Shown here: in pieces, positions 3,282-19,797 of the stretch
How positions within the stretch are numbered: the first letter of the stretch is position 1
How the letters are laid out: every line of letters begins with the position of its first letter
Source of the DNA: Candidatus Agathobaculum merdipullorum
GTDB taxonomy: Bacteria > Bacillota > Clostridia > Oscillospirales > Butyricicoccaceae
Length of the DNA: 49,884 bases
Assembly: GCA_019115185.1 (NCBI GenBank)
Contig: DXDZ01000010.1
Span: 1-49,884 of the forward strand
Direction of reading: 5' to 3'
The notes under the pieces: model-generated
What the model was told of the DNA's origin: nothing
Database searches by the model: none
What the model saw: the letters and a program-made list of their open reading frames with translations, nothing else
Made by a program: the position numbers and the translations under genes

Positions 3282-3470
3282 GACATTCCAGACGCTGCAC
3301 GCGCATAACATTTTTTCCTTTTAAAACGCCAATATTGAAATTTTTGCACATAATTTGCGCATCTTTTTTCCATGAAGAGCAGCAATTTCATCTCATATTA
3401 CGGTTTTTTGCGCACAAAATACTATCAGCAAATCCCCAAAAACAAAAATCAAACAAAAGGAGAGAAAATC

Positions 3471-3584
3471 ATGACTAACACGAAAAATGGTTCCAATCAG
3501 GGTATGGTTCCGGAAGCACGCGCTGCAATGGATCGCTTTAAGATGGAGGCGGCAGCCGACCTTGCTGTCTCTTCTCCATCTTAA
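3471..3584 (+). pseudogene. 5' half of an alpha/beta-type SASP gene, interrupted by the galactose island
   Basis: From ATG 3471, with AAAAGGAG 7-8 nt upstream, the frame encodes the N-terminal half of an alpha/beta-type small acid-soluble spore protein: GSNQ, VPEARAAMDRFKMEAAADL. These proteins coat and protect DNA in dormant spores. After Leu31 (codon 3561-3563) similarity stops and the frame runs six foreign codons (AVSSPS) to TAA at 3582-3584. The missing C-terminal half is at 19675-19797, same strand. Joining CTT (3561-3563) to GGC (19675-19677) yields an uninterrupted 71-residue protein with seven residues between FK and GV, as family members have. The interruption is therefore by insertion, not decay. 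A CATATTA (3394-3400) preceded by TGAAGA could be part of a forespore promoter, but the spacing is not convincing. Confidence 0.93.
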
Positions 3585-3585
3585 A
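3537..3585. other. attL: left junction of the serine-recombinase island
   Basis: Host SASP sequence runs up to CTTG at 3561-3564 and foreign sequence begins at 3565. TTG at 3562-3564 is the only sequence shared with the right junction at the crossover (19673-19675). The site is flanked by a perfect 12-bp inverted repeat: TTTAAGATGGAG (3537-3548, host side) and CTCCATCTTAAA (3574-3585, element side), with dyad centre at 3561, essentially at the crossover. Confidence 0.85.
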
Positions 3586-3622
3586 CCATTCCCAACCACA
3601 CCTACATACCGGCTCACACCCT

Positions 3623-3660
3623 AAACGGTCGTTTTCTGCTTTTGCGGGAGACGGCCGTTT
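3623..3660. other. Imperfect GC-rich hairpin near the left end of the island
   Basis: AAACGGTCGTTTTCTGC (3623-3639) can pair with GCGGGAGACGGCCGTTT (3644-3660), using several G-T pairs and a 4-nt loop. It lies between attL and the promoter of the two-component genes and could stop transcription entering from the SASP promoter. There is no strong T tract, so its function is uncertain. Confidence 0.35.
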
Positions 3661-3682
3661 GTATATAGTTGCAGAAATTGTT

Positions 3683-3711
3683 TTGCGAAATGGGGAGAAA
3701 TTTGGTATAAT
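3683..3711 (+). promoter_or_regulatory. Sigma-A-type promoter for the two-component operon
   Basis: TTGCGA (3683-3688) and a consensus TATAAT (3706-3711) are separated by 17 bp. The response regulator ATG follows at 3768. Confidence 0.65.
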
Positions 3712-3767
3712 ACTGCACATCAGAATCCCACATATCGCCTTGGCGAGGAAAGGATGGGTGCCGTGTT

Positions 3768-5048
3768 ATGGCAAAGTCATTATATTCCGTGATTGTCGCA
3801 GATGATGAGGATGAATTAAGAGAAGCCGTATGCACCATGATTCCCTGGGAGGACTACGGTTTCCGATTGGTGGGCAGCGCCAGCAACGGGCTGGATGCCT
3901 TGCAGATGGTGGAGGAATGCGAGCCCGACCTGCTGCTCACCGATATTCGGATGCCTTTCATCTCGGGTATTGAGCTTGCCCGGCAAGTGCGCGAGATCCG
4001 CCCTGCCACGAACATTGCGTTTCTCAGCGGCTATGACGATTTTGAATACGCCAAGCAGGCAATCCAATATAACATTATCAGCTATATGCTCAAACCCCTG
4101 ACCATGGAAGGACTGAGCAAGGAGCTGCAAAATATCCGGCAGAAGATCGACGCTCAGTTTGCTATGTTCCGGCAGGCCTCCCCCAATCCCGGCGGACTGG
4201 ATCTCCAGACCGCGATGCTGATGCCTCTGGTGCTGGACGATTACGCCGAGACGGACGGCGAAGCGCGGGCCAAGGCCTACGCCCGACAGTGCGGCTTGCT
4301 GCGTGATCTGGATGACCGCCCCCACTATGTCGTGATGGTATCCACCCTGCTGGAAGCGGACGGCGGCAACTGCACTGCGCCCTCCTTTGTAGCGTCCGTC
4401 AACCGGCTGGCAACCAAATACCTGCGGGGCGCCCATTTCTTCGCTTCCGGCAAAGTGATCTCCGTGCTGCTGGGCAATCCCTCCGAGTTTGACAAGTATC
4501 TTCACATTCTGGCCGACGAAATCCCCCAGATGGCCGATCGCGTACTGGGCAAATGCTGCCGCATCGGTATCAGCCGTGCCACGCACAATCTGACTGCCCT
4601 CCACAACGCCTACCGGGAAGCGATGGAGGCCCTCCGGCAGGGCGATCGCATGGAAAGCGGCGCGCAGTTCATCAGCGACCTGAACCCGGCAGTCAAGGGC
4701 GGCGAACTGCTGTGCAAGCGGGCCATGGAAGCGCTCAACCAACATTATATGGATGCGAACCTCTCTCTGGTATCGCTCAGCGGAATGCTGACCGTCAGCC
4801 CCAACCACCTTTCCACCTGCATCAAAAAATACACCGGCGAAACCTTCATCAATATCCTCATTCGCAAGCGGATGGAGGCTGCCCGCGATCTGCTGGTCTC
4901 CTCCCCGCTGAAAATTCAGGAGATCGCCCAGCGATGCGGCTACACCGACCAGCATTATTTCAGCTACTGCTTCAAAAAATACTGCGGCGAGTCCCCCAGC
5001 ACGATGCGCCGCAGGTTGGATCGAGAAAAGGCGGGTGACCCATTGTGA
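3768..5048 (+). CDS. Response regulator with AraC-type DNA-binding domain (YesN type)
   Basis: This 426-residue protein begins with a receiver domain (about residues 6-120): acidic pocket ADDED near residue 11, phosphoacceptor Asp59 in LLLTDIRMP, and the conserved Lys109 in YMLKP. A middle region without a recognisable motif spans about 125-310. The C-terminal 105 residues are a double helix-turn-helix AraC domain (LSLVSLSGMLTVSPNHLSTC and KIQEIAQRCGYTDQHYFSYC). AGGAAAGGATGGG upstream supports ATG 3768. The stop overlaps the kinase start by 4 bp, so the two are translationally coupled. Together with the YesM-type kinase and the lipoprotein behind it, it most likely activates the galactose transporter or Leloir operons on the same island. 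The regulated promoters are inferred from position only. Confidence 0.93.
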   Translation: MAKSLYSVIVADDEDELREAVCTMIPWEDYGFRLVGSASNGLDALQMVEECEPDLLLTDIRMPFISGIELARQVREIRPATNIAFLSGYDDFEYAKQAIQYNIISYMLKPLTMEGLSKELQNIRQKIDAQFAMFRQASPNPGGLDLQTAMLMPLVLDDYAETDGEARAKAYARQCGLLRDLDDRPHYVVMVSTLLEADGGNCTAPSFVASVNRLATKYLRGAHFFASGKVISVLLGNPSEFDKYLHILADEIPQMADRVLGKCCRIGISRATHNLTALHNAYREAMEALRQGDRMESGAQFISDLNPAVKGGELLCKRAMEALNQHYMDANLSLVSLSGMLTVSPNHLSTCIKKYTGETFINILIRKRMEAARDLLVSSPLKIQEIAQRCGYTDQHYFSYCFKKYCGESPSTMRRRLDREKAGDPL

Positions 5049-6763
5049 AAGACGGCATCTCCCGCACAGGCCTGCGCATCACCACCATTCTGGTTTCTAT
5101 GGTGCTGAGCGTGGCCGCGGTTATCCTGTGCTGCTGCATCCTGCTTTTTCTCAACCGTTACCGCAGCGCCATGGTACAAAGCGCCCTGACCAGCAGCGAC
5201 CAAGCCGTTTCACAGGTTTCCAACACGGTCGGGAACTATCTGCAAAGCATGGAACAGGCGATGTCGCTGGTGGAGTGGTCCATGCTGGAAAGCGCCGACA
5301 ACCGCAATCAGCTTTTGGACGCTTTTCTCACTTTTCGCCCGGACGTTGTCGCGGTGACCAGCTACTCGCCCTCCGGCAAAATGCTGGACTGTTGGTGTCT
5401 TGACCGGGCCCCCCGGGAAAACATTTACCAAAACCTTTCTTTCAATCTGGAACGGGCCCGCGCCTCGGGCGGCGCTTATATGACTGCCCCGCACGTGGAG
5501 AGCATCTTCGAGGGCTATTATCCCTGGGTGGTGACCATGACCGTCCCGCTGGAGTCCGGCAATCAGACGTCTTGGGTCTCGCTCGACCTGAGCTTTTCCA
5601 GCATCTCCACCTACATCAACAATGTCAGCATCGGCCAGCGCGGCTACTGCTTTCTGATGGACAAAGAGGGCAATATCGTTTACCACCCGCAGCAGCAGCT
5701 GCTGTACTCAGGCCTGAAATCAGAGGACACCGCCTCTCTGGCTGCACTGGAAGACGGCGCCTATGTCGATGACACCGTGATCTATTCCGTCACCAGCGTG
5801 GCGGGCAGCGACTGGCGAATTGTGGGCGTCAGCTATGTGGATGAAATGGTCAACCGCAGCTTCCGCGAAATGATTCGCCTGTCCTTGGTGCTTGGGGTGG
5901 CGCTGCTTGCGGCTGCGGTATTGACAAGTGTGCTTCTCTCCCGCCTGCTGGCGCGCCCGCTGCGCGGTCTGGCCGACGCGATGGAGCGTTTTGAGACCGA
6001 CGCCGACCACTTTACCTACCTGCCCGTGGGTGGCACGCGGGAGGTGCAGGAGCTGTCAGGTTCCTTCGAGCATATGGTGCTGCGCATCCAGCGCCTTATG
6101 TCCACCGTGCGCGAGGAAGAGGTCAACCTGCGCAAAACCGAGCTGAAAGCCCTGCAAGCCCAAATCAATCCCCACTTTCTGTACAATACTTTGGATTCCA
6201 TCGCATGGATGTGCGAACAGGGCCGCAATGACGACGCGGTCAAGATGATCCATGCGCTCGCCCGCTTGTTCCGCATCAGCATCAGCAAAGGGCACGAACT
6301 TATTCCGATCGCCAAGGAGATCGAGCATGCGGAAAGCTATCTGCAAATCCAGAAATACCGCTATAAAAACCAGTTTACCTATGAATTCGATGTAGACCCT
6401 GCGTGTCTCAACTACTACTGCAACAAGATCACCCTGCAACCCATCATTGAGAACGCCATCAACCACGGCCTTGATCTGCTGGTGGATGAAGGCCGCATCA
6501 CCGTACAGGTGCGGCAGGACGGAGAGGACATCGTATTCAAGGTGCAGGACAACGGCGTAGGCATGAGCGATGAGCTGATCCGCTCCATTCTGGCGCATGA
6601 GCCGGAGGACCGCACCGGTATCGGCATCCGCAATGTCAACGACCGGCTGCAAATCTATTTCGGCAAGCAGTACGGCCTGCGCATCACCAGCGAACCGGAT
6701 GTAGGAACCTGCGTGGAGATCCTCATGCCCAAGATACAGGAGGGGGATTATGAAGCGAAATAG
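5045..6763 (+). CDS. Sensor histidine kinase (YesM type)
   Basis: This 572-residue membrane kinase has an N-terminal transmembrane helix (about 13-37), an extracytoplasmic sensor region of about 240 residues that fits a Cache-like domain, a second helix (about 279-303) and a HAMP segment. A His_kinase domain follows, with phosphoacceptor His377 in QINPHFLYNTLDS, then a HATPase domain (LQPIIENAINHG, VQDNGVGMS, GIGIRNVNDRL). The GTG start at 5045 overlaps the regulator's stop (GTGA). It ends 14 bp inside the start of the next gene, a lipoprotein sugar-binding protein, so the three form one tightly coupled operon. By analogy with kinase-binding-protein pairs in Clostridia, the ligand may be sensed through that lipoprotein. 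Family is certain, ligand is inferred. Confidence 0.93.
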   Translation: MKDGISRTGLRITTILVSMVLSVAAVILCCCILLFLNRYRSAMVQSALTSSDQAVSQVSNTVGNYLQSMEQAMSLVEWSMLESADNRNQLLDAFLTFRPDVVAVTSYSPSGKMLDCWCLDRAPRENIYQNLSFNLERARASGGAYMTAPHVESIFEGYYPWVVTMTVPLESGNQTSWVSLDLSFSSISTYINNVSIGQRGYCFLMDKEGNIVYHPQQQLLYSGLKSEDTASLAALEDGAYVDDTVIYSVTSVAGSDWRIVGVSYVDEMVNRSFREMIRLSLVLGVALLAAAVLTSVLLSRLLARPLRGLADAMERFETDADHFTYLPVGGTREVQELSGSFEHMVLRIQRLMSTVREEEVNLRKTELKALQAQINPHFLYNTLDSIAWMCEQGRNDDAVKMIHALARLFRISISKGHELIPIAKEIEHAESYLQIQKYRYKNQFTYEFDVDPACLNYYCNKITLQPIIENAINHGLDLLVDEGRITVQVRQDGEDIVFKVQDNGVGMSDELIRSILAHEPEDRTGIGIRNVNDRLQIYFGKQYGLRITSEPDVGTCVEILMPKIQEGDYEAK

Positions 6764-7721
6764 ATGGCGCGCAGGATGGGCTGCTCTGCTTTGCATCCTG
6801 CTGTGCGGCTGCTCGACAGGCACCGACTATTCCCGGCAGCATACGGTAACGCTGGTGTCCAAATCCACACAGACTGAGTTTTGGCTGTCCGTCTTTGCCG
6901 GGGCGGAGGCCGCTGCCACCGAATATAACCTCAAGCTCAACATCATCGGCCCGGATACTGAGGAAGACTATGAAACCCAGAATCAGATGGTGGCCGATGC
7001 GGTGAGCGAAGGCGCGGAAGCCATTGTATTTTCCGCCATCGACTATGAAAACAATGCCGCTGCGATTGATGCCGCCGCCAAAGAGGGCGTCAAAATCGTA
7101 GCCATCGACAGCAATGTGGACTCCGAGGCCGTCAGCACCTACATCGGCACCGATAATTACGCCGCCGGACAAATGGCGGCGCAGGCGGCTCTTGAGCGGG
7201 TCAAAACGCCGCTGAAGGTCGGCATCGTCAATTACGACATCAGCAGCGCCAACGGACAGGAACGGGAACAGGGTGCGCTGGATGCCTTTGCCGACAGCGG
7301 TCGGGCTGAAGTCGTCAGCGTCATTAACACGCTGGCAGAAGCCAGCCACGCCAAAAAGGATACCACTACCCTGCTTTCCATTCACCCGGAAATCAACGTC
7401 TTGCTGGCCTTCAACGAACCGACCAGTGTGGGCGCCGCTCAGGCGATCGAGCAGCTGGGCTTGTGCAATTCGGTCTTTCTGGTCGGCTTTGACTCCAATG
7501 TTGCCACCGTAGACGGTCTGCAAGAAGGCTCGGTCGATGCCCTTATTGTGCAGAACCCCTACGCCATGGGCTATCTGGGTGTGGAAAGCGCCTATAAGCT
7601 GCTTACCGGGCAGGTGGGCAGCATGGAGCGTATTGTAGACACCTCCACACAGATCGTAGATCGGAACAACCTTTTCGAGGTGGACAGCCAAAAAGCGCTC
7701 TTCGCGTTTGACTCCCGATAA
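6750..7721 (+). CDS. Lipoprotein periplasmic-binding-protein-like sugar sensor (Peripla_BP_4 fold)
   Basis: This 323-residue protein starts with a lipoprotein signal (MKRNRWRAGWAALLCILLC, then CGCST; lipidated Cys about 21-22), followed by a LacI-like periplasmic binding fold. Recognisable pieces are VTLVSKSTQTEFWLSVFAGA, ADAVSEGAEAIVFSAID, IGTDNYAAGQMAA and VFLVGFDSN. GGAGGGGG precedes ATG 6750, which overlaps the kinase gene by 14 bp. Its location in the regulatory operon, with a terminator and a separate promoter before mglB, argues for an accessory ligand sensor for the kinase rather than the transport binding protein. MglB, encoded next, is a distinct and longer protein. The likely ligand is a hexose such as galactose, from context only. 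Confidence 0.88.
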   Translation: MKRNRWRAGWAALLCILLCGCSTGTDYSRQHTVTLVSKSTQTEFWLSVFAGAEAAATEYNLKLNIIGPDTEEDYETQNQMVADAVSEGAEAIVFSAIDYENNAAAIDAAAKEGVKIVAIDSNVDSEAVSTYIGTDNYAAGQMAAQAALERVKTPLKVGIVNYDISSANGQEREQGALDAFADSGRAEVVSVINTLAEASHAKKDTTTLLSIHPEINVLLAFNEPTSVGAAQAIEQLGLCNSVFLVGFDSNVATVDGLQEGSVDALIVQNPYAMGYLGVESAYKLLTGQVGSMERIVDTSTQIVDRNNLFEVDSQKALFAFDSR

Positions 7722-7757
7722 AATTGTGCATGATGCACAATTTTATCGGGATAATTT
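7714..7757 (+). terminator. Terminator of the sensor operon: perfect 18-bp inverted repeat
   Basis: 7714-7731 and 7733-7750 are perfect reverse complements around a single central G (7732), followed by a T-rich run (ATAATTTTTT). The left arm overlaps the last codons and stop of the lipoprotein gene. The near-continuous palindrome could also serve as a protein-binding site, but its position and the T run fit termination. Confidence 0.8.
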
Positions 7758-7812
7758 TTTGTCTAATCATAAATTTCAATGAAATTTACCCCTTCTGCGG
7801 TGATTTTTCACC

Positions 7813-7841
7813 TTGTTTTTCCACTCGGTTTCCTCTACAAT
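7813..7841 (+). promoter_or_regulatory. Promoter for mglB
   Basis: TTGTTT (7813-7818) and TACAAT (7836-7841) are 17 bp apart, ahead of mglB at 7910. It separates the transporter genes from the sensor operon and is a reasonable target for the AraC-type regulator. No operator repeat was obvious to me. Confidence 0.55.
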
Positions 7842-7909
7842 GAAAGCAAGCAGGAAGGAACTTTGGTAGAAAGTCCCTCCCAATTCAAAAGGAGAAAAGG
7901 AGAATCATT

Positions 7910-9193
7910 ATGAAGAAAAAGGTACTTGCGCTTACCCTGGCTGCCGCGATGATGGCCAGCATGGCTGCCTGCTCTTCGGGCGGCAACAATTCGGACGCTG
8001 CGCAGAACGACAGCGGTACGCAGGCGACGGAGGTCGCTAACAAGGATAAGCCCTTAGTATGGTTCAACCGTCAGCCTTCCAACAGCTCCACCGGTGAGCT
8101 GGATATGAACGCTCTGCAGTTCAACGACAATACTTACTACGTAGGCTTTGACGCCAACCAGGGCGCCGAGCTCCAGGGCACCATGATTCTGGACTACGTA
8201 AAGGCTAACATCGACACCATCGACCGCAACGGCGACGGCATCATCGGTTATGTACTGGCCATCGGCGATATCGGCCACAACGACTCCATCGCCCGTACCC
8301 GCGGCGTTCGCGCAGCACTCGGCACGGCTGTGGAAACCAACGGCGCGATCAACAGCGATCCGGTCGGCAGCAACGCTGACGGCTCCGCTACCGCTGTTAA
8401 GGACGGCTCTCTGGAAGTCAACGGCAAGACCTACATCGTCCGTGAGCTGGCTTCTCAGGAAATGAAGAACTCCGCTGGTGCAACTTGGGACGCTGCTACC
8501 GCTGGTAACGCGATCGGCACCTGGGCTTCCTCTTTCGGCGATCAGATCGACATCGTAGCCTCCAACAACGACGGCATGGGCATGTCCATGTTCAACGCTT
8601 GGTCCAAGGCAAACAAGGTTCCGACCTTCGGCTATGACGCAAACGCTGACGCAGTTGCTGCTATCGCAGAAGGCTACGGCGGCACCATCAGCCAGCATGC
8701 TGACGTTCAGGCTTACCTGACCCTCCGCGTACTGCGCAACGCGCTGGACGGCGTTGACATCGACACCGGTATCGGCACGGCAGATGACGCCGGCAACGTA
8801 CTGAGCGACGACGTTTACTACTACGACGAAGCAGCTCGTTCCTACTACGCTCTGAACGTAGCAGTTACCGCTGACAACTACACCGAGTTCACCGATTCCA
8901 CCAAGGTTTACGAGCCTGTCAGCAATCAGCTGGATGCATCTGCTCATCCCGAGAAGAGCGTATGGCTGAACATCTACAACGCTGCTGATAACTTCCTGAG
9001 CGCTACCTATCAGCCGCTGCTGCAGAACTATGACGATCTGCTCAACCTGAAGGTCGAGTACATCGGCGGCGACGGCCAGACCGAGGCTAACATCACCAAC
9101 CGCCTGAGCAACCCGAGCGCTTACGACGCCTTCGCCATCAACATGGTTAAGACCGACAACGCTGCTTCCTACACTGCTCTGCTGAGCCAGTGA
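7910..9193 (+). CDS. mglB: Galactose/methyl-galactoside ABC transporter substrate-binding lipoprotein
   Basis: This 427-residue protein has a lipoprotein signal (MKKKVLALTLAAAMMASMAAC, lipidated Cys21), a Ser/Asn/Asp-rich linker and a periplasmic binding fold. The segment DRNGDGIIGYVLAIGD resembles the Ca2+-binding loop of E. coli MglB and supports a galactose/glucose-binding assignment. Other family pieces are HNDSIARTRGVRAAL, IVASNNDGMGMSMFNAW and TFGYDANADAVAAIAEG. Two Shine-Dalgarno runs (AAAGGAG, AAAGGAG) precede ATG 7910. It is first in the mglBAC operon, and a large RNA structure follows it, as expected if the binding protein is made in excess over MglA and MglC. Codon choice is strongly biased, in line with high expression. 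Confidence 0.93.
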   Translation: MKKKVLALTLAAAMMASMAACSSGGNNSDAAQNDSGTQATEVANKDKPLVWFNRQPSNSSTGELDMNALQFNDNTYYVGFDANQGAELQGTMILDYVKANIDTIDRNGDGIIGYVLAIGDIGHNDSIARTRGVRAALGTAVETNGAINSDPVGSNADGSATAVKDGSLEVNGKTYIVRELASQEMKNSAGATWDAATAGNAIGTWASSFGDQIDIVASNNDGMGMSMFNAWSKANKVPTFGYDANADAVAAIAEGYGGTISQHADVQAYLTLRVLRNALDGVDIDTGIGTADDAGNVLSDDVYYYDEAARSYYALNVAVTADNYTEFTDSTKVYEPVSNQLDASAHPEKSVWLNIYNAADNFLSATYQPLLQNYDDLLNLKVEYIGGDGQTEANITNRLSNPSAYDAFAINMVKTDNAASYTALLSQ

Positions 9194-9241
9194 TACGGGT
9201 TCAACCCCTTTAAGCCAAACAACAAGTAACAAGCCTATGTA

Positions 9242-9310
9242 ATTGGGGAGAAGGAATTCTCCGTCTTAGGAGAAGCAATTCTCCATACGGAAGAAGACCT
9301 TCTCCCCAAT
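9242..9310 (+). other. Structured mglB-mglA spacer: branched hairpin, likely attenuator or mRNA stabiliser
   Basis: ATTGGGGAGAAGG (9242-9254) pairs perfectly with CCTTCTCCCCAAT (9298-9310). Between them two GGAGAA.../...TTCTCC pairs can form internal stems, giving a branched structure. A small hairpin (GTTTTC/GAAAAC) follows near 9314-9330. There is no clean T tract after the main stem, so partial termination or protection of mglB mRNA from 3' decay is more likely than full termination. Confidence 0.6.
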
Positions 9311-9389
9311 CGTGTTTTCCAAGAAAACCGTGGCGGATCAACTTGGGTCCGCCCAATCTGGCAATATTGCATAAACGGGAGTAACGAGA

Positions 9390-10898: not shown

Positions 10899-10913
10899 TA
10901 GGAGAAATCGCTT

Positions 10914-12569: not shown

Positions 12570-12591
12570 GCAAACCATTTCTTAAAAACGA

Positions 12592-12641
12592 AAAGCCGCT
12601 GCAAGGCAACTATAAAGGCCCCGCCTGCTTGCAGCGGCTTT
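12592..12641 (+). terminator. Terminator after mglC
   Basis: AAAGCCGCTGCAAG (12592-12605) and CTTGCAGCGGCTTT (12628-12641) form a perfect 14-bp stem with a 22-nt loop, followed by a T-rich but interrupted tail. It separates the transport operon from the Leloir genes. Confidence 0.7.
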
Positions 12642-12644
12642 CTA

Positions 12645-12674
12645 TTTACATTTACCGAAAAAAAGATGTATACT
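12645..12674 (+). promoter_or_regulatory. Candidate promoter for galK-galE-galT-galM
   Basis: TTTACA (12645-12650) and TATACT (12669-12674) are 18 bp apart, directly downstream of the mglC terminator and about 54 bp before the galK ATG. Confidence 0.5.
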
Positions 12675-12727
12675 GTGTTTGAAAGCAGCGTCCCGGTCTG
12701 CCGGGGCCAAAAGGAGTGAAGACAACC

Positions 12728-14014
12728 ATGCAAAAATTAGGCGATGTACGCCGCGCACTGGATGCCGGAGAACTGAACGAGCCGTTGTCCCATCTGCTGT
12801 ATGATGATCTGGCAGCCGCCCGCGAGCGGATTGCAAAAGTACTGGACGAATTTCAGAAAACCTTTGGTGTCGGAGACGACGCCCCCGTCGCTTTGTGCTC
12901 TGCCCCCGGCCGCACGGAGATTGGCGGCAACCATACCGACCATCAGCACGGCCGCGTTCTGGCCGGTGCGGTCGATCTAGACTTTTTGGCCTGTGCCAGC
13001 CCGAACGGCACCAACACCATCCGCTTCCAGTCCGAAGGCTGGCCCATGGTGGAGGTCGCACTGGATACGCTTGACCCCAAGGAGGAAGAAAAGGAAAGCA
13101 CGGCCGCTTTGGTACGCGGCATGGCGGCACAGGCAGCCCAGAAAGGCTATACCGTAGCGGGCTTTGATGTGTATGCCACATCCAGCGTGCTGCCTGGTTC
13201 CGGCCTGTCCTCCTCTGCTGCATGCGAAGTGCTGCTGGGCGTCATTGAAAACCATCTGTTCTGCCATGATGAGCTTGACCCGGTGACGATCGCTCAAATG
13301 GGCCAAAAAGCAGAAAATGTGTATTTCGGCAAGCCCTGCGGCCTGATGGATCAGACTGCCTCCTCGGTCGGCGGCGCTGTAACGATCGACTTTGCCGACC
13401 CTGCCGCTCCGATTGTTCGGGCGCTACAAGTGGATCTGGACAGCTTGGGCTATGCGCTGTGCATCATTAACTGCGGCGCAGACCACGCTGATCTGACCGA
13501 TGAATACGCCGCAGTCCCCAGAGAGATGCGGTCGGTAGCCGCTTTCTTCGGCAAAGAGGTGCTGCGTGAGATCAAAGAATCCGATGTGCTGACCAATCTG
13601 CCTGCGCTGCGCAAAGCAGTGGGCGATCGTGCGGTACTTCGTGCGCTCCACTTCCTGGCCGACAACGAGCGGGTAGCCAAGCAGGCGGACGCGCTGGCAA
13701 AGGGCGATATGGATACCTTCCTCGCTCTGGTCAACGAGTCCGGTCACTCCTCTTGGGAGCAGCTGCAAGACATTACCCCCGCCGGTGCGGTGCAGGAACA
13801 GTCGATGGCGATTGCCCTGACCGTGGCACAGCGTGCGCTGAACGGCCGCGGCGCCTACCGTGTGCACGGCGGCGGCTTTGCCGGAACCATTCAGGCCTTT
13901 GTTCCGCTGGACATTCTCGCGGCGTTCCGCAGCGAGATCGAAAGTGCGCTGGGCGCCGGCTGCTGCCATGTGCTGCGCATCCGACCCGTTGGCGGTACGG
14001 TACTCTGGTCTTAA
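12728..14014 (+). CDS. galK: Galactokinase
   Basis: GalK phosphorylates galactose to galactose-1-phosphate with ATP, the first committed Leloir step, in the cytoplasm. The 428-residue protein shows the GHMP kinase signatures: CSAPGRTEIGGNHTDHQHG near residue 58 (galactokinase motif), VLPGSGLSSSAACEVLLG (ATP-binding loop) and RVHGGGFAGTIQAFV near the C-terminus. I placed the start at ATG 12728, about 10 nt after GGAG. A GTG four codons upstream overlaps that Shine-Dalgarno and cannot use it. The next gene, galE, starts 39 bp downstream with its own AAAGGAG, consistent with a galKETM operon. It is longer than E. coli GalK (382), as are other Firmicute homologues. Confidence 0.93.
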   Translation: MQKLGDVRRALDAGELNEPLSHLLYDDLAAARERIAKVLDEFQKTFGVGDDAPVALCSAPGRTEIGGNHTDHQHGRVLAGAVDLDFLACASPNGTNTIRFQSEGWPMVEVALDTLDPKEEEKESTAALVRGMAAQAAQKGYTVAGFDVYATSSVLPGSGLSSSAACEVLLGVIENHLFCHDELDPVTIAQMGQKAENVYFGKPCGLMDQTASSVGGAVTIDFADPAAPIVRALQVDLDSLGYALCIINCGADHADLTDEYAAVPREMRSVAAFFGKEVLREIKESDVLTNLPALRKAVGDRAVLRALHFLADNERVAKQADALAKGDMDTFLALVNESGHSSWEQLQDITPAGAVQEQSMAIALTVAQRALNGRGAYRVHGGGFAGTIQAFVPLDILAAFRSEIESALGAGCCHVLRIRPVGGTVLWS

Positions 14015-14053
14015 CCCCTATTGATTGCGATGATGTGAAAGGAGACCTGTAAC

Positions 14054-15045
14054 ATGGCAATTTAGTGCTGGGCGGAGCCGGCTATATCGGTTCCCATACG
14101 GTATATGAGCTGATCGACGCGGGCCGGGAGGTCGTGGTGGCAGACAATCTGCAAACCGGCTTCCGTGCCGCGGTTCACCCCAAGGCAAAATTCTATCAGC
14201 TGGATATCCGGGATCAGAAGGCTCTGGATACCCTGTTCGAGACCGAGCAAATCGACGGCGTAATCCATTTCGCCGCCTCCTCTCAGGTCGGGGAGTCCAT
14301 GTCCGACCCGCTCAAGTATTATGACAACAACCTGCACGGCACCATGGTATTGCTTCAGTCCATGGTGGCGCACGGCATCGACAAAATCGTTTTCTCCTCC
14401 ACCGCCGCAACCTACGGCGAGCCGGAGCGCGTGCCGATTCTGGAGGATGACCCCACCCATCCCACCAACTGCTATGGTCAGACCAAGCTGGACATGGAGC
14501 ACATGATGGGTTGGGTATCCCGGGCGCACGGCCTGAAATATGTTGCCCTGCGGTATTTCAACGCCTGCGGCGCACATGCTTCCGGTCAGATCGGTGAGGC
14601 ACACAATCCGGAAACCCACCTGATCCCCCTCATCCTGCAAGTGCCGCTGGGCCAGCGCGAGAAGATCAGTGTGTTTGGCGAGGACTATCCCACCAAGGAC
14701 GGCACCTGCGTTCGTGACTACATCCATGTCACCGATCTGGCACAAGCGCACATTCTGGCGCTGGACTACCTGATGAACGGCGGCGAAAACAACGTATTCA
14801 ATCTGGGCAACGGCGTAGGCTTCACGGTAAAGGAAGTCATCGACGTCGCGCGTTCTGTAACCGGCCATCCGATCCCCGCCGAAATGGCGCCCCGTCGCGC
14901 CGGCGACCCGGCGCAGCTCATCGCTTCCTCGGAGAAGGCGGTCAAGGTGCTGGGCTGGAAGCCGGAATACAATGACCTGTCCACCATTGTCGCCTCCGCT
15001 TGGGCGTGGCACAAGAGCCATCCCCACGGCTATACGGAGGGTTGA
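14054..15045 (+). pseudogene. galE: UDP-glucose 4-epimerase with a one-base deletion after the start codon
   Basis: GalE interconverts UDP-galactose and UDP-glucose using bound NAD. The body is intact: LGGAGYIGSH (NAD-binding), FSSTAATYGEP, catalytic YGQTK, and YFNACGAH, to the stop at 15045. Upstream, AAAGGAG sits 9 nt before ATG 14054, and ATG GCA ATT is followed in frame by TAG. Homologues begin MAILVLGGAGYIG. Inserting one T into the TTT run at 14061-14063 gives exactly MAILVLGGAGYIGSH. So this sequence has a 1-nt deletion, real or a read/assembly error. A GTG at 14065 could restart the frame but lacks a suitable Shine-Dalgarno (20 nt away) and would remove the first strand of the Rossmann fold. 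If real, the Leloir pathway here would be impaired unless another galE exists. Confidence 0.85.
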
Positions 15046-15047
15046 GC

Positions 15048-16544
15048 ATGGAACGTGACCAAGCCATTGCAATGCTGGTGACCTATGCACTGCGCAAAGG
15101 TCTGATCCAGCCCTGTGAAGAGATCTGGGCGACAAACGCTCTGCTGGGCGTGCTCAAGCTGGACAGCTACACGCCCCCGGAAACGGAAATGCCTGCGGAC
15201 ATCGATCTGCCTGCCGTACTGGACGCGCTGCTGGACGATGCGCACGAGCGCGGCGTACTGGAGGAAAACTCCATCGTCTACCGCGATTTGTTTGATACCG
15301 CGCTGATGGGCGTGCTCACGCCCCGCCCCGCGCAGGTCATCGACACCTTCCAATCCCTGCGGCAGGAAAGCCCGGAAAAGGCCACCGATTGGTACTACCG
15401 CTTCAGTCAGGACACCAACTATATCCGCCGCGACCGCATCGCAAAGGATGTGCAGTGGAAGGCGCCCACCGACTACGGCGAGCTGGACATCACCATCAAC
15501 CTGTCCAAGCCGGAGAAGGACCCCAAGGCCATCGCTGCGGCCCGCAATATGCCGGCTTCGGCCTATCCCCGCTGCCTGCTGTGCGCGGAAAACGAGGGAT
15601 ATGCGGGTCGGGTCAATCATCCCGCCCGTCAGAACCACCGCATTGTCCCCATCACCATCAACGACTCACCGTGGTTCCTGCAGTACTCCCCCTATGTGTA
15701 CTACAACGAACACTGCATCTGCTTTAACGCGGTTCACACCCCGATGAAGATCGACCGGGCGTGCTTTGCCAAGCTGCTGGACTTTGTGGGACAGTTCCCG
15801 CATTATTTCGTAGGTTCCAACGCCGACCTGCCCATCGTGGGCGGCTCTATTCTGGCGCACGACCACTTTCAGGGCGGGCGGTATACCTTCGCCATGGCGA
15901 AAGCGCCGGTCGAAACGCCGTTCTCCTTCCCCGGCTACGAGGATGTGCAGTCGGGCATCGTCAAGTGGCCGATGTCGGTGGTGCGTCTCACCGCCGCCGA
16001 CCCGCAGCGGCTCATTGATCTGGCCGACCGCATCCTGACCTCGTGGCGCGGCTACACCGACGAGAGCGCAGTCATCTACGCCGAAACGGACGGCGAGCCG
16101 CACAACACCATCACTCCCATTGCCCGCCGTCGCGGCAGCGACTACGAACTGGATCTGGTGCTGCGCAACAATCTCACCACCCCGGAGCATCCTTTGGGCC
16201 TGTACCATCCTCACGCAGAACTGCACCATATCAAAAAGGAGAACATCGGCCTGATCGAAGTGATGGGTCTGGCAGTCCTCCCTGCCCGTCTCAAAAACGA
16301 GCTGGCAGCTGTAGCGCAAAAGCTGGTTTCCGGCGAAGATCTGTTGGCCGATCCCCTCACCGCTTCTCATGCCAGCTGGGCTATGGGCTTCCGGGATAAG
16401 TACGAACTCACCGCAGACAACGCGCTGGACGTAGTATACAAAGAGACCGGCCTCGTCTTTGCCAAGGTGCTCGAGCACGCCGGTGTATACGCCCGCACGC
16501 CCGAAGGCAAGGAAGCCTTCCTCCGATTCTTAAGGCAGGTGTAA
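15048..16544 (+). CDS. galT: UDP-glucose-hexose-1-phosphate uridylyltransferase, Firmicute type
   Basis: GalT transfers UMP from UDP-glucose to galactose-1-phosphate, giving glucose-1-phosphate and UDP-galactose. The 498-residue protein belongs to the longer Firmicute class rather than the ~350-residue E. coli class. It shows FNAVHTPMKI, then GGSILAHDHFQGGRYTFAMA containing the HDHFQGG motif typical for this class, and the C-terminal LGLYHPHAELHHIKKENIGL. ATG 15048 is 2 bp after the galE stop, with GGAGG 7 nt upstream. An open frame extends 16 codons further upstream, but there it overlaps galE. galM follows after 3 bp, so galE-galT-galM are translationally coupled. The reaction is assigned by family. 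Confidence 0.93.
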   Translation: MERDQAIAMLVTYALRKGLIQPCEEIWATNALLGVLKLDSYTPPETEMPADIDLPAVLDALLDDAHERGVLEENSIVYRDLFDTALMGVLTPRPAQVIDTFQSLRQESPEKATDWYYRFSQDTNYIRRDRIAKDVQWKAPTDYGELDITINLSKPEKDPKAIAAARNMPASAYPRCLLCAENEGYAGRVNHPARQNHRIVPITINDSPWFLQYSPYVYYNEHCICFNAVHTPMKIDRACFAKLLDFVGQFPHYFVGSNADLPIVGGSILAHDHFQGGRYTFAMAKAPVETPFSFPGYEDVQSGIVKWPMSVVRLTAADPQRLIDLADRILTSWRGYTDESAVIYAETDGEPHNTITPIARRRGSDYELDLVLRNNLTTPEHPLGLYHPHAELHHIKKENIGLIEVMGLAVLPARLKNELAAVAQKLVSGEDLLADPLTASHASWAMGFRDKYELTADNALDVVYKETGLVFAKVLEHAGVYARTPEGKEAFLRFLRQV

Positions 16545-16547
16545 AAA

Positions 16548-17585
16548 ATGATAGACTTCAGACGGCAACCTTTCGGTGTAACTGCTGACGGACGAGCGGT
16601 AGATCAGTGGACGCTGCGCGCCGGTTCCTATGCCGTGCAGGTGCTGACCTATGGCGGCGTTTTACGCTCCTTTATCGTGCCTGCGCCAGAAGGCAGCCGG
16701 GATATCGCGCTGGGATACGACAGTCTGGCAGAATACGAATCGCAGGACAAGTATCTGGGCGCGCTGGTAGGCCGCGTGGCCAACCGCATCGGCGGCGCAG
16801 CTTTCGATCTGGACGGTATCCACTACCCCTTGGCAGTCAACAACGGCCCCAACTGCCTGCATGGCGGTCTGCGCGGCTTTGACCGCGCGGTATGGAAGGC
16901 GCAAACCGAAAACAACTCCTTGGTGCTGACCCATGTCAGCCCCGCCGGAGAAGAGGGGTTCCCCGGCACACTCAAGGTGAAAGTGACTTACACCCTCACC
17001 GAGGACGGAACGCTCACGCTGGACTATCAGGCCAAAAGCGATGCTGTTACCCTGTGCAACCTGACCAACCACAGCTACTTCAATCTGTTAGGGCACGCTC
17101 ACGGCTCTCTGGAGGGTCAGCAAGTGCAGATCTGGGCGGACGCCATCACGGAGACCGATGCCGACAGCACGCCTACCGGCGTCCTGCTTCCGGTGGAGGG
17201 CACACCCTTTGATCTGCGCTCGCCCCGCGACTTCCTGCAAGGGTTGGCAATGGAGCATCCGCAGCTGACGCTGGGCAACGGATACGACCACAACTTCACG
17301 CTGCACACCACGCCGGTCTCTCCTCTGAGTCTGGCGGCACGGGTCAGCGGCGGCGGTCTGTGTCTGGAGTGCTGCACCACCCAGCCCGGCCTGCAGCTCT
17401 ACACGGCCAATTATCTGGACGGTAGCCCCGGCAAGGGCGGCGCGTGTTACGGCCCGCGGTCGGCTTTCTGCTTGGAAACGCAGGCTTGGCCCGATGCCAT
17501 CCATCATGCCAATTTTCCCTCTGTCGTGCTTCCGGCAAGGGAAACCTACCACCACACGACCACCTACCGCGTCACCATGCTATAA
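16548..17585 (+). CDS. galM: Aldose 1-epimerase (galactose mutarotase)
   Basis: GalM equilibrates beta- and alpha-D-galactose so that GalK can use the sugar. The 345-residue protein has the family landmarks: LGALVGRVANRIGGA, NNGPNCLHGGLRGFDRAVW with a His, LTNHSYFNLLGH with the catalytic His, LGNGYDHNF, and CLETQAWPDAIHHANFP holding the catalytic Glu. AGGTG just upstream supports ATG 16548. It is the last gene of the Leloir operon, followed closely by a strong terminator. No beta-galactosidase or alpha-galactosidase accompanies it on the island. Confidence 0.93.
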   Translation: MIDFRRQPFGVTADGRAVDQWTLRAGSYAVQVLTYGGVLRSFIVPAPEGSRDIALGYDSLAEYESQDKYLGALVGRVANRIGGAAFDLDGIHYPLAVNNGPNCLHGGLRGFDRAVWKAQTENNSLVLTHVSPAGEEGFPGTLKVKVTYTLTEDGTLTLDYQAKSDAVTLCNLTNHSYFNLLGHAHGSLEGQQVQIWADAITETDADSTPTGVLLPVEGTPFDLRSPRDFLQGLAMEHPQLTLGNGYDHNFTLHTTPVSPLSLAARVSGGGLCLECCTTQPGLQLYTANYLDGSPGKGGACYGPRSAFCLETQAWPDAIHHANFPSVVLPARETYHHTTTYRVTML

Positions 17586-17605
17586 ATCGCATCATGATAA
17601 AACAG

Positions 17606-17652
17606 CAACCGGGACACTGCAACACGCTTTGCAGTGTCCCGGTTGTTTTTTT
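17606..17652 (+). terminator. Strong rho-independent terminator of the gal operon
   Basis: CAACCGGGACACTGCAA (17606-17622) pairs perfectly with TTGCAGTGTCCCGGTTG (17629-17645). A 6-nt loop separates the arms and seven T residues follow. Confidence 0.92.
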
Positions 17653-17664
17653 ATGCATCAGAAT

Positions 17665-17710
17665 AAAAGCACCTCCTATGACACAAATTACCACAAAAGG
17701 AGGTGTTTTT
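17665..17710 (+). promoter_or_regulatory. Hairpin that buries the ribosome-binding site of the 66-codon ORF (or a second terminator)
   Basis: AAAAGCACCTCCT (17665-17677) pairs with AGGAGGTGTTTTT (17698-17710) over 13 bp with one G-T pair and a 20-nt loop. The right arm contains the perfect Shine-Dalgarno AGGAGGTG, five T and then ATG at 17711. It can act as an RBS-masking switch for the ORF or, given the T run, as a terminator. Confidence 0.55.
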
Positions 17711-17911
17711 ATGAACATCACAGCGCATACCGGTACAATGTCTCCCCCGCCTGCATCGCGGCAAACGCAAACCCGCATCGGCGCAGGCACTTTTTTTGTC
17801 AGCCGCCGGTTTGTGGGCGACTGCCCTGTCTGCGACCTGCTCCGGCAGCGTGTGCAGCGAGCCGCGCACACAACATCATCCATTGACGAGACCAGCAGCA
17901 CCGCAGTATAA
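17711..17911 (+). CDS. Small ORF (66 aa) ahead of the serine recombinase, unknown function
   Basis: ATG 17711 is preceded by AGGAGGTG at ideal spacing and opens a 66-residue frame (MNITAHTGTMSPPPASRQTQ ... DCPVCDLLRQRVQRAA ... TSSTAV). It is basic, has one CPVC pair and no transmembrane segment. I recognise no family. It lies between the gal terminator and the recombinase, and its 3' end overlaps the recombinase promoter. Small proteins next to large serine integrases are sometimes recombination directionality factors, so that is a possible role, but nothing in the sequence proves it. The frame is GC-rich and could be fortuitous; the strong ribosome-binding site is the main argument for it. 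Confidence 0.45.
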   Translation: MNITAHTGTMSPPPASRQTQTRIGAGTFFVSRRFVGDCPVCDLLRQRVQRAAHTTSSIDETSSTAV

Positions 17912-17912
17912 T
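17883..17912 (+). promoter_or_regulatory. Sigma-A-type promoter for the serine recombinase
   Basis: TTGACG (17883-17888) and a consensus TATAAT (17907-17912) are 18 bp apart, about 35 bp ahead of the recombinase ATG. Looks constitutive; no operator repeats seen. Confidence 0.7.
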
Positions 17913-17947
17913 GGGTCGGTGAGCCGGTTCTGAAAGGAGCAAACCAC

Positions 17948-19621
17948 ATGAGAACCGGTAATCTGCAACTGGTTTTTGCCTATCTGCGCCTTTCCAACGA
18001 AGAGGCGCGCAGCGGCGAATCCTCCAGTATTGCAAACCAGCGACAAATGATTCAGGACTATTGCCATCGCCACAGCATTACGCTTGTGCAGGAGTTTGTG
18101 GACGACGGCTATTCCGGCGGCAACTTCGACCGCCCGGGGTTTCAGGACATGCTGCGGCAGCTGCGCGACGGCAAAGCCAATATGGTCATCACCAAGGATT
18201 TATCCCGTCTCGGACGCGACATGCGAGAGTCCAGCTACTATGCCGAGCAGTTCTTTCCCGAGCATGGCATCCGCTATCTGACGATCGCGGACCACTTCGA
18301 CAACGCCCGAGAAAACGTCATGGCGCCGTTCCAATTTGCCATGAATGAAGTCTATCTGCGCGACGGCTCGCGCAAGGTCAAAGAAGTGCTGCGCAGCAAA
18401 CGGGAAAACGGACAGTATTGCGCCTGTCCGCCCTATGGCTACCGCAAGGACCCGACGGATAAAAACCGCCTGACCCCCGACGAGCAGACCGCGCCCATCG
18501 TGCGGCGTATTTTCGAGCGGGCAGCCGCTGGGGATTCCTCGCGCAAAATCGCGCTCGACCTGAATGCGGACGGCATCATCCCGCCGCTCAAATACCGCGT
18601 CCTGTTCCGCGACGATTTCAGTCCCGAAGGCGCGGCGCGGGCATCCGACCTGTGGAACTACACCACAGTCAAGCGCATCCTGAAAAACCCGGTGTATCTC
18701 GGCCACACCTTGCTGGGCAAAAGCCGCAAAGTCAGCGTTAAATCGAAGAAAAAGGTTTCGGTACCGCAAAGCGAATGGGCGGTCACACATGACACGCACC
18801 CTCCCCTGATCGGCCCGCCGCTCTATGAGCAGGCGCAGCGCAATCTGGGACGGGGGCAGCGTACCTCTTCGGCCCATGAAACCATTCGGAAAAGCATCTT
18901 TTCGGGGATTGCATTCTGCGCGCGGTGCGGACATTCCCTCTGCTCCTGCGGCACAGTCTATAAGGGCGAACGGGAAAAATACTGGTATCTGTCCTGTACC
19001 CACCAGCGCGGCGACATCGCTAACCGCTGCGACGGCGTGCGCATCAAGTACGCAGATCTGATGGAGATTGTCCGCCACGATCTCAACCAACTGCTTTTGC
19101 TGGATGATGCACAAGCCGAAGCGCTTGCCCGTGCGGCCGCAGAAAACGAAAACGGCGCAGACGAAATCGCTGCAAGGCAGGCTCGATTGCAGCAGGCGCA
19201 AGCCCGTCTGCTGACGATCGACAAAATTATCACCAAGCTGTACACGGACAACGCCGAAGGGCGGCTGGATAACGATCGGCTGGCGCGCATGGTCGAGGCA
19301 CTTGAACAGGAATCCGCCTCACATCAGTCGGTCATAGCGGAACTGTCGCAGTCTCTCCCGGCCCCTGAGGACACAGAAGAACGCTTTCGCCGTTTCTTTG
19401 CGCTGACAAAGCAGTGCAGCCACATCGATGTACTTGACCGCGAAACGCTGCTGACCTTTGTCGAGCGCATTGAAGTCGGGCCCAAGCAATTTGCCGATGG
19501 ACGGCGCAAAGCAACCCACCGCAACACACCTTATCGGCAGGATATCCGCATCTATTATCGCTTCATCGGTGAACTCACCACTCAAAGCGAACAAAAGCTG
19601 GAATCATCCTGCAATTTTTGA
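17948..19621 (+). CDS. Large serine recombinase (TndX/TnpX-like, with recombinase zinc ribbon and DUF4368-type tail)
   Basis: This 557-residue protein is a site-specific integrase/excisionase. The N-terminal resolvase domain (about 6-150) has the catalytic Ser16 in AYLRLSNEE, IANQRQMI, VDDGYSGGNFDRPGF and the arginine-bearing ITKDLSRLGRD. The recombinase domain follows (about 170-290: PPYGYRKDP, WNYTTVKRILKNPVYLG), then a zinc ribbon (CARCGHSLCSC ... LSCTH ... RC), a long coiled coil (about 385-450) and a C-terminal tail ending VERIEVGPKQFADGRR. AAAGGAG precedes ATG 17948. Its stop codon is about 50 bp from the right junction of the island. It is almost certainly the enzyme that inserted the island into the SASP gene, and the only recombinase in the window. 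Active-site residues look intact. Confidence 0.94.
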   Translation: MRTGNLQLVFAYLRLSNEEARSGESSSIANQRQMIQDYCHRHSITLVQEFVDDGYSGGNFDRPGFQDMLRQLRDGKANMVITKDLSRLGRDMRESSYYAEQFFPEHGIRYLTIADHFDNARENVMAPFQFAMNEVYLRDGSRKVKEVLRSKRENGQYCACPPYGYRKDPTDKNRLTPDEQTAPIVRRIFERAAAGDSSRKIALDLNADGIIPPLKYRVLFRDDFSPEGAARASDLWNYTTVKRILKNPVYLGHTLLGKSRKVSVKSKKKVSVPQSEWAVTHDTHPPLIGPPLYEQAQRNLGRGQRTSSAHETIRKSIFSGIAFCARCGHSLCSCGTVYKGEREKYWYLSCTHQRGDIANRCDGVRIKYADLMEIVRHDLNQLLLLDDAQAEALARAAAENENGADEIAARQARLQQAQARLLTIDKIITKLYTDNAEGRLDNDRLARMVEALEQESASHQSVIAELSQSLPAPEDTEERFRRFFALTKQCSHIDVLDRETLLTFVERIEVGPKQFADGRRKATHRNTPYRQDIRIYYRFIGELTTQSEQKLESSCNF

Positions 19622-19642
19622 CCCATTGTTCTGTATAGCTAT

Positions 19643-19686
19643 TTTAAGATGGCGCAGGTACACCAAGGGAGGTTGGCGTCAACCTG
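19643..19686. other. attR: right junction of the island
   Basis: Element sequence ends at 19672 and host SASP codons resume with GGC at 19675-19677. The crossover TTG is at 19673-19675. TTTAAGATGG at 19643-19652 on the element side repeats the same 10-mer that lies on the host side of attL (3537-3546). Combined with CCATCTTAAA at 3576-3585 it forms an inverted repeat across the deduced circular attP. Confidence 0.85.
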
Positions 19687-19797
19687 AAGCAGGGCTATAA
19701 CGGTGATCTGACCTCCCGTCAGGCTGGTTCGATCGGCGGCCAGATGGTCAAGAAGATGATCGAGTCCTACGAGCAGAACCTGGCAAGCCAGGGCTGA
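19675..19797 (+). pseudogene. 3' half of the disrupted SASP gene
   Basis: From GGC 19675 the frame encodes GVNLKQGYNGDLTSRQAGSI then GGQMVKKMIESYEQNLASQG and a stop, the C-terminal half of an alpha/beta-type SASP with the highly conserved LTSRxAGSIGG segment. There is no start codon or ribosome-binding site in place, because its 5' half is 16 kb upstream at 3471-3563. Joined, the two give 71 residues. The sequence shows no stop, frameshift or drift, so the insertion is recent or the gene is still selected, for example by excision. Confidence 0.92.

Follow-up and report, generated by a model that had tools for sequence, protein, structure and literature searches.

The only gene for an alpha/beta-type small acid-soluble spore protein (SASP) found in the genome of Candidatus Agathobaculum merdipullorum is interrupted in frame by a 16,111-bp segment that ends in a gene for a large serine recombinase (LSR). 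The split gene lies in contig DXDZ01000010.1, of which positions 1 to 49,884 (49,884 nucleotides; the window) were analysed; the genome (G000) comprises 1.70 Mb and is 90% complete. We consider it likely that the segment is a conserved intervening element of a sporulation gene, of the skin and SP-beta type, which is excised in sporulation, and that the SASP gene is not a dead gene. Insertion at a GA dinucleotide in codon 30, empty sites in relatives, an attachment-site geometry of the LSR type, the recurrent combination of split gene, LSR and small open reading frame (ORF), and selection on the two halves are evident from the sequences compared here, and the cell probably rejoins the SASP halves when making spores. 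Almost all known sporulation-gene rearrangements affect mother-cell genes, and a conserved split of a forespore gene whose product protects spore DNA breaks this rule. Either germ-line excision is later undone, or two gene halves without a use have been preserved in these gut bacteria over a very long period, and these alternatives can be tested in cultured commensals. The split SASP also bears on how gut anaerobes form resistant, transmissible spores.

In-frame split of the SASP gene

Features given here with window coordinates lie on the forward strand unless stated otherwise, and crossover copies and element limits are given without strand. The SASP 5' part (3471-3559) consists of 29 codons (3471-3557) and the GA core; it encodes MTNTKNGSNQGMVPEARAAMDRFKMEAAA plus the two leading bases of codon 30, and is host DNA forming the B arm of attL. 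By itself, it matches positions 1-26 of the SASP family profile, Pfam PF00269 (E 4.7e-7). The 3' part (19669-19797), host DNA forming the B' arm of attR, encodes EVGVNLKQGYNGDLTSRQAGSIGGQMVKKMIESYEQNLASQG (EVGVNLKQ...LASQG) followed by a stop codon and matches profile positions 24-59 (E 4.4e-18). Joined at GA, the halves yield a gene of 71 codons that reads AAAEVGVNLKQ across the junction, as in the intact relatives, and the residues that follow AAA at the left end (DLAVSSPS) are encoded by element DNA. The profile match of each half and the joined reading bear out a preliminary description of this DNA, which had proposed one ancestral SASP gene split in frame; the orientation and the length of about 16.1 kb given there also hold. 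A profile search found no further PF00269 match in this 90% complete genome.

The SASP gene is preceded by an EF-G/YacP-like gene (Pfam) and followed by ptsI. At 653-3223 of the window, an EF-G/TetM-like GTPase is fused with a YacP-type NYN domain (Pfam). Upstream of SASP, a promoter-like pair, TCATAT ... AATACTA (3393-3424), is identical ahead of split and intact SASP genes in an alignment of 13 upstream regions, and it appears sigma-G-like. SASP genes are transcribed by sigma-G, i.e., in the forespore (PMC3533761, PMC8270828).

That the halves function without rejoining of the DNA, for example as truncated proteins, is very unlikely. The N half does continue into a short in-frame extension and a stop codon (AVSSPS-stop), and the C half of genome G004 is readable from an ATG within the element. 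However, the break lies inside the conserved SASP domain, the C half in the window has no start codon ahead in its frame, and the extension is variable (AVSSPS, AVSLTS, GVTTPS, and DVSVSS, with a stop right after AAAD in G177).

Crossover and attachment sites

Junctions of seven split species in which both are available were compared with the corresponding sequences of four intact species. The crossover is GA, with copies at 3558-3559 (left) and 19669-19670 (right). The element between the copies spans 3560-19668 (16,111 bp with one GA counted), and its limits are 3558/3560 and 19668/19670. The right side reads GAG-GTT-GGC-GTC (EVGV, as in intact relatives) in the seven split species and in an eighth with the C half only; the left side is variable after GA (GACCTT, GAGCTT, GAGGTT, and GAGGTC). 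Only GA fits, because G013, with GAGGTC at its left junction and GAGGTT at its right one, excludes TT and TG, and GACCTT in G000 excludes AG, GG, and GT. TTG, the crossover proposed in the preliminary description, is ruled out by these two sets of junctions and by the constant distance of a host motif to GA (see below). Consequently, the joined protein reads AAAEVGV instead of AAADLGV, and the predicted circle junction joins 19670 to 3560 and not 19672 to 3565.

The host motif TTTAAGATGG (3537-3546; SASP codons F-K-M), the putative outer LSR motif of attB, starts 21 bp before GA, and this distance was found in 48 of 48 left junctions with 0-2 mismatches. On the element side, the mirror copy CCATCTTAA of the attP outer motif (3576-3584, reverse strand) begins 16 bp after GA, where the best match to the mirror is also located in 47 of the 48 left junctions (0-4 mismatches). 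The other attP outer motif, TTTAAGATGG at 19643-19652, starts 26 bp before GA. Of 59 stretches searched for a right junction, namely those of the 58 loci plus the window, 42 could be read; the motif lies 26 bp before GA in 36 and is weak in three, and the remaining three have it at 19, 21, and 35 bp, respectively. A reconstruction on paper gives motif-16-GA-16-mirror for attP and motif-11-GA for the left attB arm. For serine integrases, the rule has been described that the outer (ZD) motif is 5 bp nearer to the core in attB than in attP (PMC3783163). The geometry read here, a near-palindromic attP with a 5-bp shift between attP and attB, conforms to this rule; no clear motif was seen on the right arm of attB, and the shift is evident on the left B arm alone. 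The LSR family has a well-defined attB in coding sequence.

At two loci in genomes with intact SASP (L087 and L118), the right end of the element is joined to other sequence, again at GA. L087 is from Flavonifractor sp. An306, and both elements combine the same LSR and GA core with a non-SASP site and a full-length SASP in the genome. In a clade comprising L108-L112, L114, L123, L124, and L131, the LSR is convergent and adjoins the SASP N half; the core read along the LSR is TC, not GA, which would flip the orientation of insertion. In G340, the SASP halves are inverted relative to each other on one contig.

Most of the genomes are metagenome-assembled according to their record titles, and the split could in principle be an assembly artefact or reflect chimeric contigs. 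This explanation is hardly credible, given that the same junctions occur in many separate assemblies, including the isolate-titled A. massiliense Marseille-P4005 (L084) and Flintibacter muris DSM 110149 (L095), and that the geometry is exact in 48 of 48 left junctions.

Recombinase and candidate directionality factor

The LSR gene (17948-19621) encodes 557 amino acids with four Pfam domains (Resolvase, Recombinase, Zn_ribbon_recom, and DUF4368), so that the N-terminal Resolvase, Recombinase, and zinc ribbon parts of an LSR are all present. It ends 47 bp from the right crossover, in line with the large serine recombinase that had been noted at the right end. The best curated NCBIfam LSR models are those of XisF (fdxN element) and the cassette recombinases Ccr (E about 1e-28), but the window LSR is not a member of either family, with 99 bits against cut-offs of 375 and 900. 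A phage origin was considered and rejected: viral contigs yield LSR relatives of 23-33% identity only. Among phage records, a relative at 51% was found on an unannotated human-faecal scaffold (MT836041), and the others among the matches listed are below 40%. Viral structural or replication genes and conjugation genes are absent from the annotated genes of the window element (Pfam, NCBIfam).

A small ORF of 66 amino acids (17711-17911) located directly upstream of the LSR is a candidate directionality factor. Of 54 distinct regions ahead of the LSR, 46 contain its pattern, G-x-x-T-Y-x-x-x-R-x-F (versus 2 of 1080 shuffles), and 44 contain a sigma-A-type LSR promoter similar to that of the window (TTGACG-18-TATAAT, 17883-17912, with the stop codon of the small ORF inside TATAAT); both counts rest on loose text patterns. 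The small ORF has no convincing family match in Pfam, NCBIfam, or PHROGs. Its AlphaFold model is beta-beta-alpha with a mean pLDDT of 63 (low confidence). A resemblance to TnpW of Tn4451-type elements was considered, but no analysis supports it. A candidate promoter of the small ORF, GAATA-18-CAAATTA (17661-17690), was recognized in an alignment of eight Agathobaculum species: the -35-like box of the G[A/C]ATA type is present in all eight (one as ACATA), and a CAANTTA-like -10 box follows 18 nt after it in five (CAA in six). This pair appears similar to forespore promoters.

Distribution of the split gene

In a survey of 25 Agathobaculum genomes, seven have both SASP halves, one has the C half only, and two have the N half only with the same element end. 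Thus, 10 of 25 are split at this codon, and no other SASP match was found in any of the ten. Of the remaining genomes, 13 have a full or nearly full SASP, one (G007) is cut elsewhere, and one has no match. The empty sites for which a search in relatives had been suggested are therefore found as uninterrupted orthologues, and four of them were read in sequence. An orthologous LSR is located at the junction in 8 of the 25 genomes, G000 included, and the orthologues in the other seven of the eight C-half genomes are 81-87% identical. The next-closest LSRs in a 60-genome search are at 58% (G051, also at SASP), followed by at most 42% among the matches listed. In a 295-genome sample, four further families of the order have SASP split at the same codon together with LSR relatives of 50-58%. 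GPR, the germination protease whose substrates are SASPs, was found in all 25 genus genomes.

A scan of genome contigs gave 58 loci, of which 57 are homologues of the window LSR (57-87% over the best segment) and one is unrelated (31%). The LSR lies against a SASP half in 51 of the 57 homologous loci, and the suggested search for the same recombinase in the SASP genes of relatives was thereby answered in the affirmative. In 42 of them the C half follows the LSR, and in nine the LSR is convergent with the N half (assigned by coordinates, with seven read in sequence). The other six comprise two loci at other sites, two ending at the contig end, and two remnants, namely L135 ahead of a SASP uncut at this site and L133 beside an intact SASP. 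SASP content was counted in 49 carrier genomes, leaving out six Agathobaculum loci of the genus survey and L130, L134, and L137; 42 have partial matches only, some of them a single piece, and G364 and G349 have a nearly full SASP. The smallest element measures 4.1 kb (G004) and the largest about 76 kb (G354).

Age of the element and selection on the halves

In pairwise comparisons, the LSR has a higher dS than ptsI in all 21 pairs and a higher dS than the EF-G-like gene in 9 of 10, and LSR dN/dS is 0.04-0.12. Since the LSR values are above those of host genes, the element has not been passed recently between these Agathobaculum species, and the LSR appears by dS to be about as old as its hosts in this genus. 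For the N half in split genomes, pS is 0.308, pN is 0.003, and the ratio is 0.011 (nine genomes); the corresponding values for the C half are 0.262, 0.033, and 0.127 (eight genomes). In the four intact genomes, the ratios are 0.064 for the N part and 0.068 for the C part; all these values are from pooled pairs, which are not independent. The constraint on the N half in split genomes is at least that in intact genes. Changes in the C half are confined to the last residues, which are variable in intact genes too. By these measures, both SASP halves are under purifying selection.

The segment may also be an ordinary mobile element for which SASP is a favoured site, with the gene inactivated and the halves still intact through recent insertion or coexisting intact strains. 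We regard this as unlikely, although it carries more weight than the other alternatives to excision. Intact and split species are intermixed within the genus, the elements of L087 and L118 demonstrate mobility with the same GA core at other sites, the LSR remnants L133 and L135 lie beside a SASP that is intact or uncut at this site, and the C half is under less constraint than in intact genomes. On the other hand, LSR divergence at or above host divergence in all 21 ptsI comparisons points to insertions that are old or to an element kept in each lineage. The N halves have a single amino-acid change, in one of nine, at pS 0.31, and the same codon, usually of the sole SASP locus, is affected across dozens of species.

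Excision in sporulation remains the preferred explanation, and several observations weigh against it. Saturation limits the age argument, since many dS values approach or exceed 1 and are therefore rough. Constraint on the C half is weaker by a factor of about two relative to the four intact genomes (0.127 vs 0.068). A full-length SASP is also present in 5 of the 49 carriers, in two of which the element is at another site, and the close relatives G003 and G018 have an intact SASP. Selection on the halves could thus also be maintained by polymorphism within species. In contrast to the mother-cell cases, progeny would inherit a forespore excision, and the return step that this needs is putative; likewise, the directionality factor is only a candidate and sporulation of the hosts is presumed. 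The excised circle, sought with one exact attP pattern that would miss a varied core or mirror (e.g., G001), was found in none of 62 genomes and in no viral contigs; this is weak counter-evidence, because the integrated form is what one expects in assemblies of growing cells and the pattern misses variants.

Proposed excision and return

As in intervening elements, a sporulation gene is interrupted, loss of the element restores the frame, and a recombinase gene of its own is located at the element end. The SASP target departs from them in being forespore-expressed, where a mother-cell target would be expected. According to one source, almost all described intervening elements interrupt genes of the mother cell, and lysis of this cell accounts for their survival (PMC6957869). 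In the worked cases, sporulating cells produce the recombinase or its directionality factor, and the gene becomes whole again in the mother cell (PMC4191935, PMC6957869, PMC10747680, PMC5595907). Because SASP is a sigma-G gene, the lineage that undergoes excision would have to be that of the forespore, and the element could then be conserved only through re-integration.

In the proposed mechanism, the LSR family uses the SASP coding sequence as attB and inserts its element into codon 30 (Glu). In sporulating cells, the LSR would recombine attL with attR under the influence of a directionality factor, for which the small ORF is the most likely candidate. The element would then leave as a circle, and the forespore would express the restored 71-codon SASP gene. 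Once the spore has germinated, the LSR, expressed via the sigma-A-type promoter and acting alone, would drive attP x attB recombination, so that the circle is re-integrated and growing cells again carry a split gene. A serine integrase performs integration without accessory proteins (PMC3783163). Excision, its timing, and the identity of the directionality factor are thus predictions of this scheme.

The closest known systems share some of these features. Skin in sigK of B. subtilis and C. difficile carries a recombinase and interrupts this sporulation gene in frame, and excision restores the gene (PMC6957869, PMC10747680). Unlike SASP, which is transcribed by sigma-G (PMC3533761), sigK is a mother-cell gene and its excision is not inherited. 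SP-beta in spsM of B. subtilis has constitutive SprA, sporulation-controlled SprB, and inverted repeats flanking attP (PMC4191935, PMC8270828), but is a full prophage in a mother-cell gene, whereas the window element has no viral genes among those annotated and a different LSR. Gin, which interrupts the short sporulation gene gerE of B. cereus, is a non-phage element with a serine recombinase and the additional factor GirX (PMC5595907); it differs in belonging to the B. cereus group and in its target, a mother-cell regulator, while SASP is split across several families, in many species. Yin in yabG of C. botulinum and vfbin in spoVFB are likewise intervening elements of sporulation genes, yin with a recombinase and a candidate recombination directionality factor (PMC10747680). 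Their target genes are different, and yin was reported as unique to one isolate (PMC10747680).

Complementarity between the LSR leader and the left end

The LSR leader (17919-17958) contains motif A (GTGAGCCGGT) and a predicted hairpin around the ribosome-binding site and start codon. Covariation in 22 sequences is consistent with the hairpin, as four of its seven pairs are changed on both sides. The 5' arm of the hairpin is complementary to motif A'' (ACCGGCTCACA, 3608-3618), which lies at the opposite, far end of the element, immediately ahead of a terminator-like inverted repeat. In 36 genomes, the A/A'' pairing score is 10.4 of 12 for matched and 9.0 for mismatched combinations, and 7.5 for shuffled sequences. 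When only Watson-Crick pairs were scored in 30 distinct A/A'' duplexes, 46 other positions were left, 21 of which are G.U. At leader G or T, 21 of 31 are G.U versus 10.3 expected, and 15 mismatches are at leader A or C, where wobble is impossible; these counts are from related sequences with some spurious registers, identical duplexes being counted once and G339 and G340 left out.

We do not claim this complementarity as proof of RNA pairing, and a shared protein site is possible instead; it is a lead for a sensor of topology. In the usual orientation, A'' would be located at the end of the SASP N-half transcript, and in the circle it would lie in the 3' untranslated region of the LSR's own transcript. 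In the convergent clade, only the latter placement would hold.

Other genes of the element

Genes for a response regulator, a histidine kinase, and a sugar-binding protein (3768-7721; Pfam) are followed by those of an MglBAC-like galactose ABC transporter (7910-12569; Pfam, with NCBIfam matches below curated cut-offs) and by galK, galE, galT, and galM of the Leloir pathway (12716-17585; NCBIfam, galK below curated cut-offs). This galactose module had been noted between the SASP halves; the view of it as defining cargo was abandoned. The operon lies outside SASP in G003, where SASP is intact, and on other contigs in G015, G023, and partly G017, which rules it out as foreign or specific cargo; the 4.1-kb element of G004 lacks it.

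Split sigG and further elements

The sigma-G gene (sigG) is in two pieces in 20 of the 25 genus genomes, and only one of the pieces was found in three; the exceptions are a full match in G020 and a match up to position 236 in G008. An LSR ORF ends 34-36 nt before the sigG C piece in six of six split genomes examined, with LSR domains confirmed in two. The N piece is located elsewhere on the chromosome, in G013 at 112 kb from the C piece on one contig (L200, L201). In G000, the pieces are at C17:19699-19977 and C80:3531-4022 (L202, L203). Their pN/pS values are 0.18 and 0.09 (six genomes), where the C piece of G003 has an odd residue run, perhaps an error. A full-length sigG-like match was obtained in 28 of 29 other genomes and none in G032; all are below the curated cut-off, which was passed by the B. 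subtilis control alone. Joining the sigG pieces would need inversion or fission.

A broader idea, which we put forward tentatively and consider possible but not probable, is that the forespore (germ-line) genome of Agathobaculum, and with it of much of the Oscillospirales, is reassembled in a programmed and reversible way. The SASP gene, at either of two codons, and, in Agathobaculum, sigG would be split in growth, each break with its own LSR, joined in the forespore, and cut again after germination. The switch of the SASP element may be timed by RNA, with the far-end motif pairing with the LSR leader hairpin to sense the integrated versus circular state. The literature searched, from which subscription papers were mostly absent, yielded no description of an interrupted alpha/beta SASP or sigG gene; PMC3533761 mentions a frameshifted sspA for K. 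tusciae.

Some minor observations concern further elements. The sigG C piece ends early (positions 203-243) in several genomes and may be further cut. A second element cuts SASP at the codons KKM in G007 (L071) and in 10 of 43 loci, these being the loci above with a C half after the LSR and the remnant L135; examples are L095 (about 4770-4890), L198, and L199. In two genomes with the KKM element, the LSR runs in frame across the junction into the SASP C terminus. In these, the SASP part runs into a conserved tail that is probably the C terminus of the LSR, and the two proteins would swap their C-terminal ends. A second LSR lineage, 35-39% identical to the window LSR, is among the matches listed for 15 of the 25 genus genomes (e.g., G013:C2:2418589-2420154, L204; G000:C82:26572-28128, L205), and lies some kilobases from a probable sigF in G013, G000, and G004.

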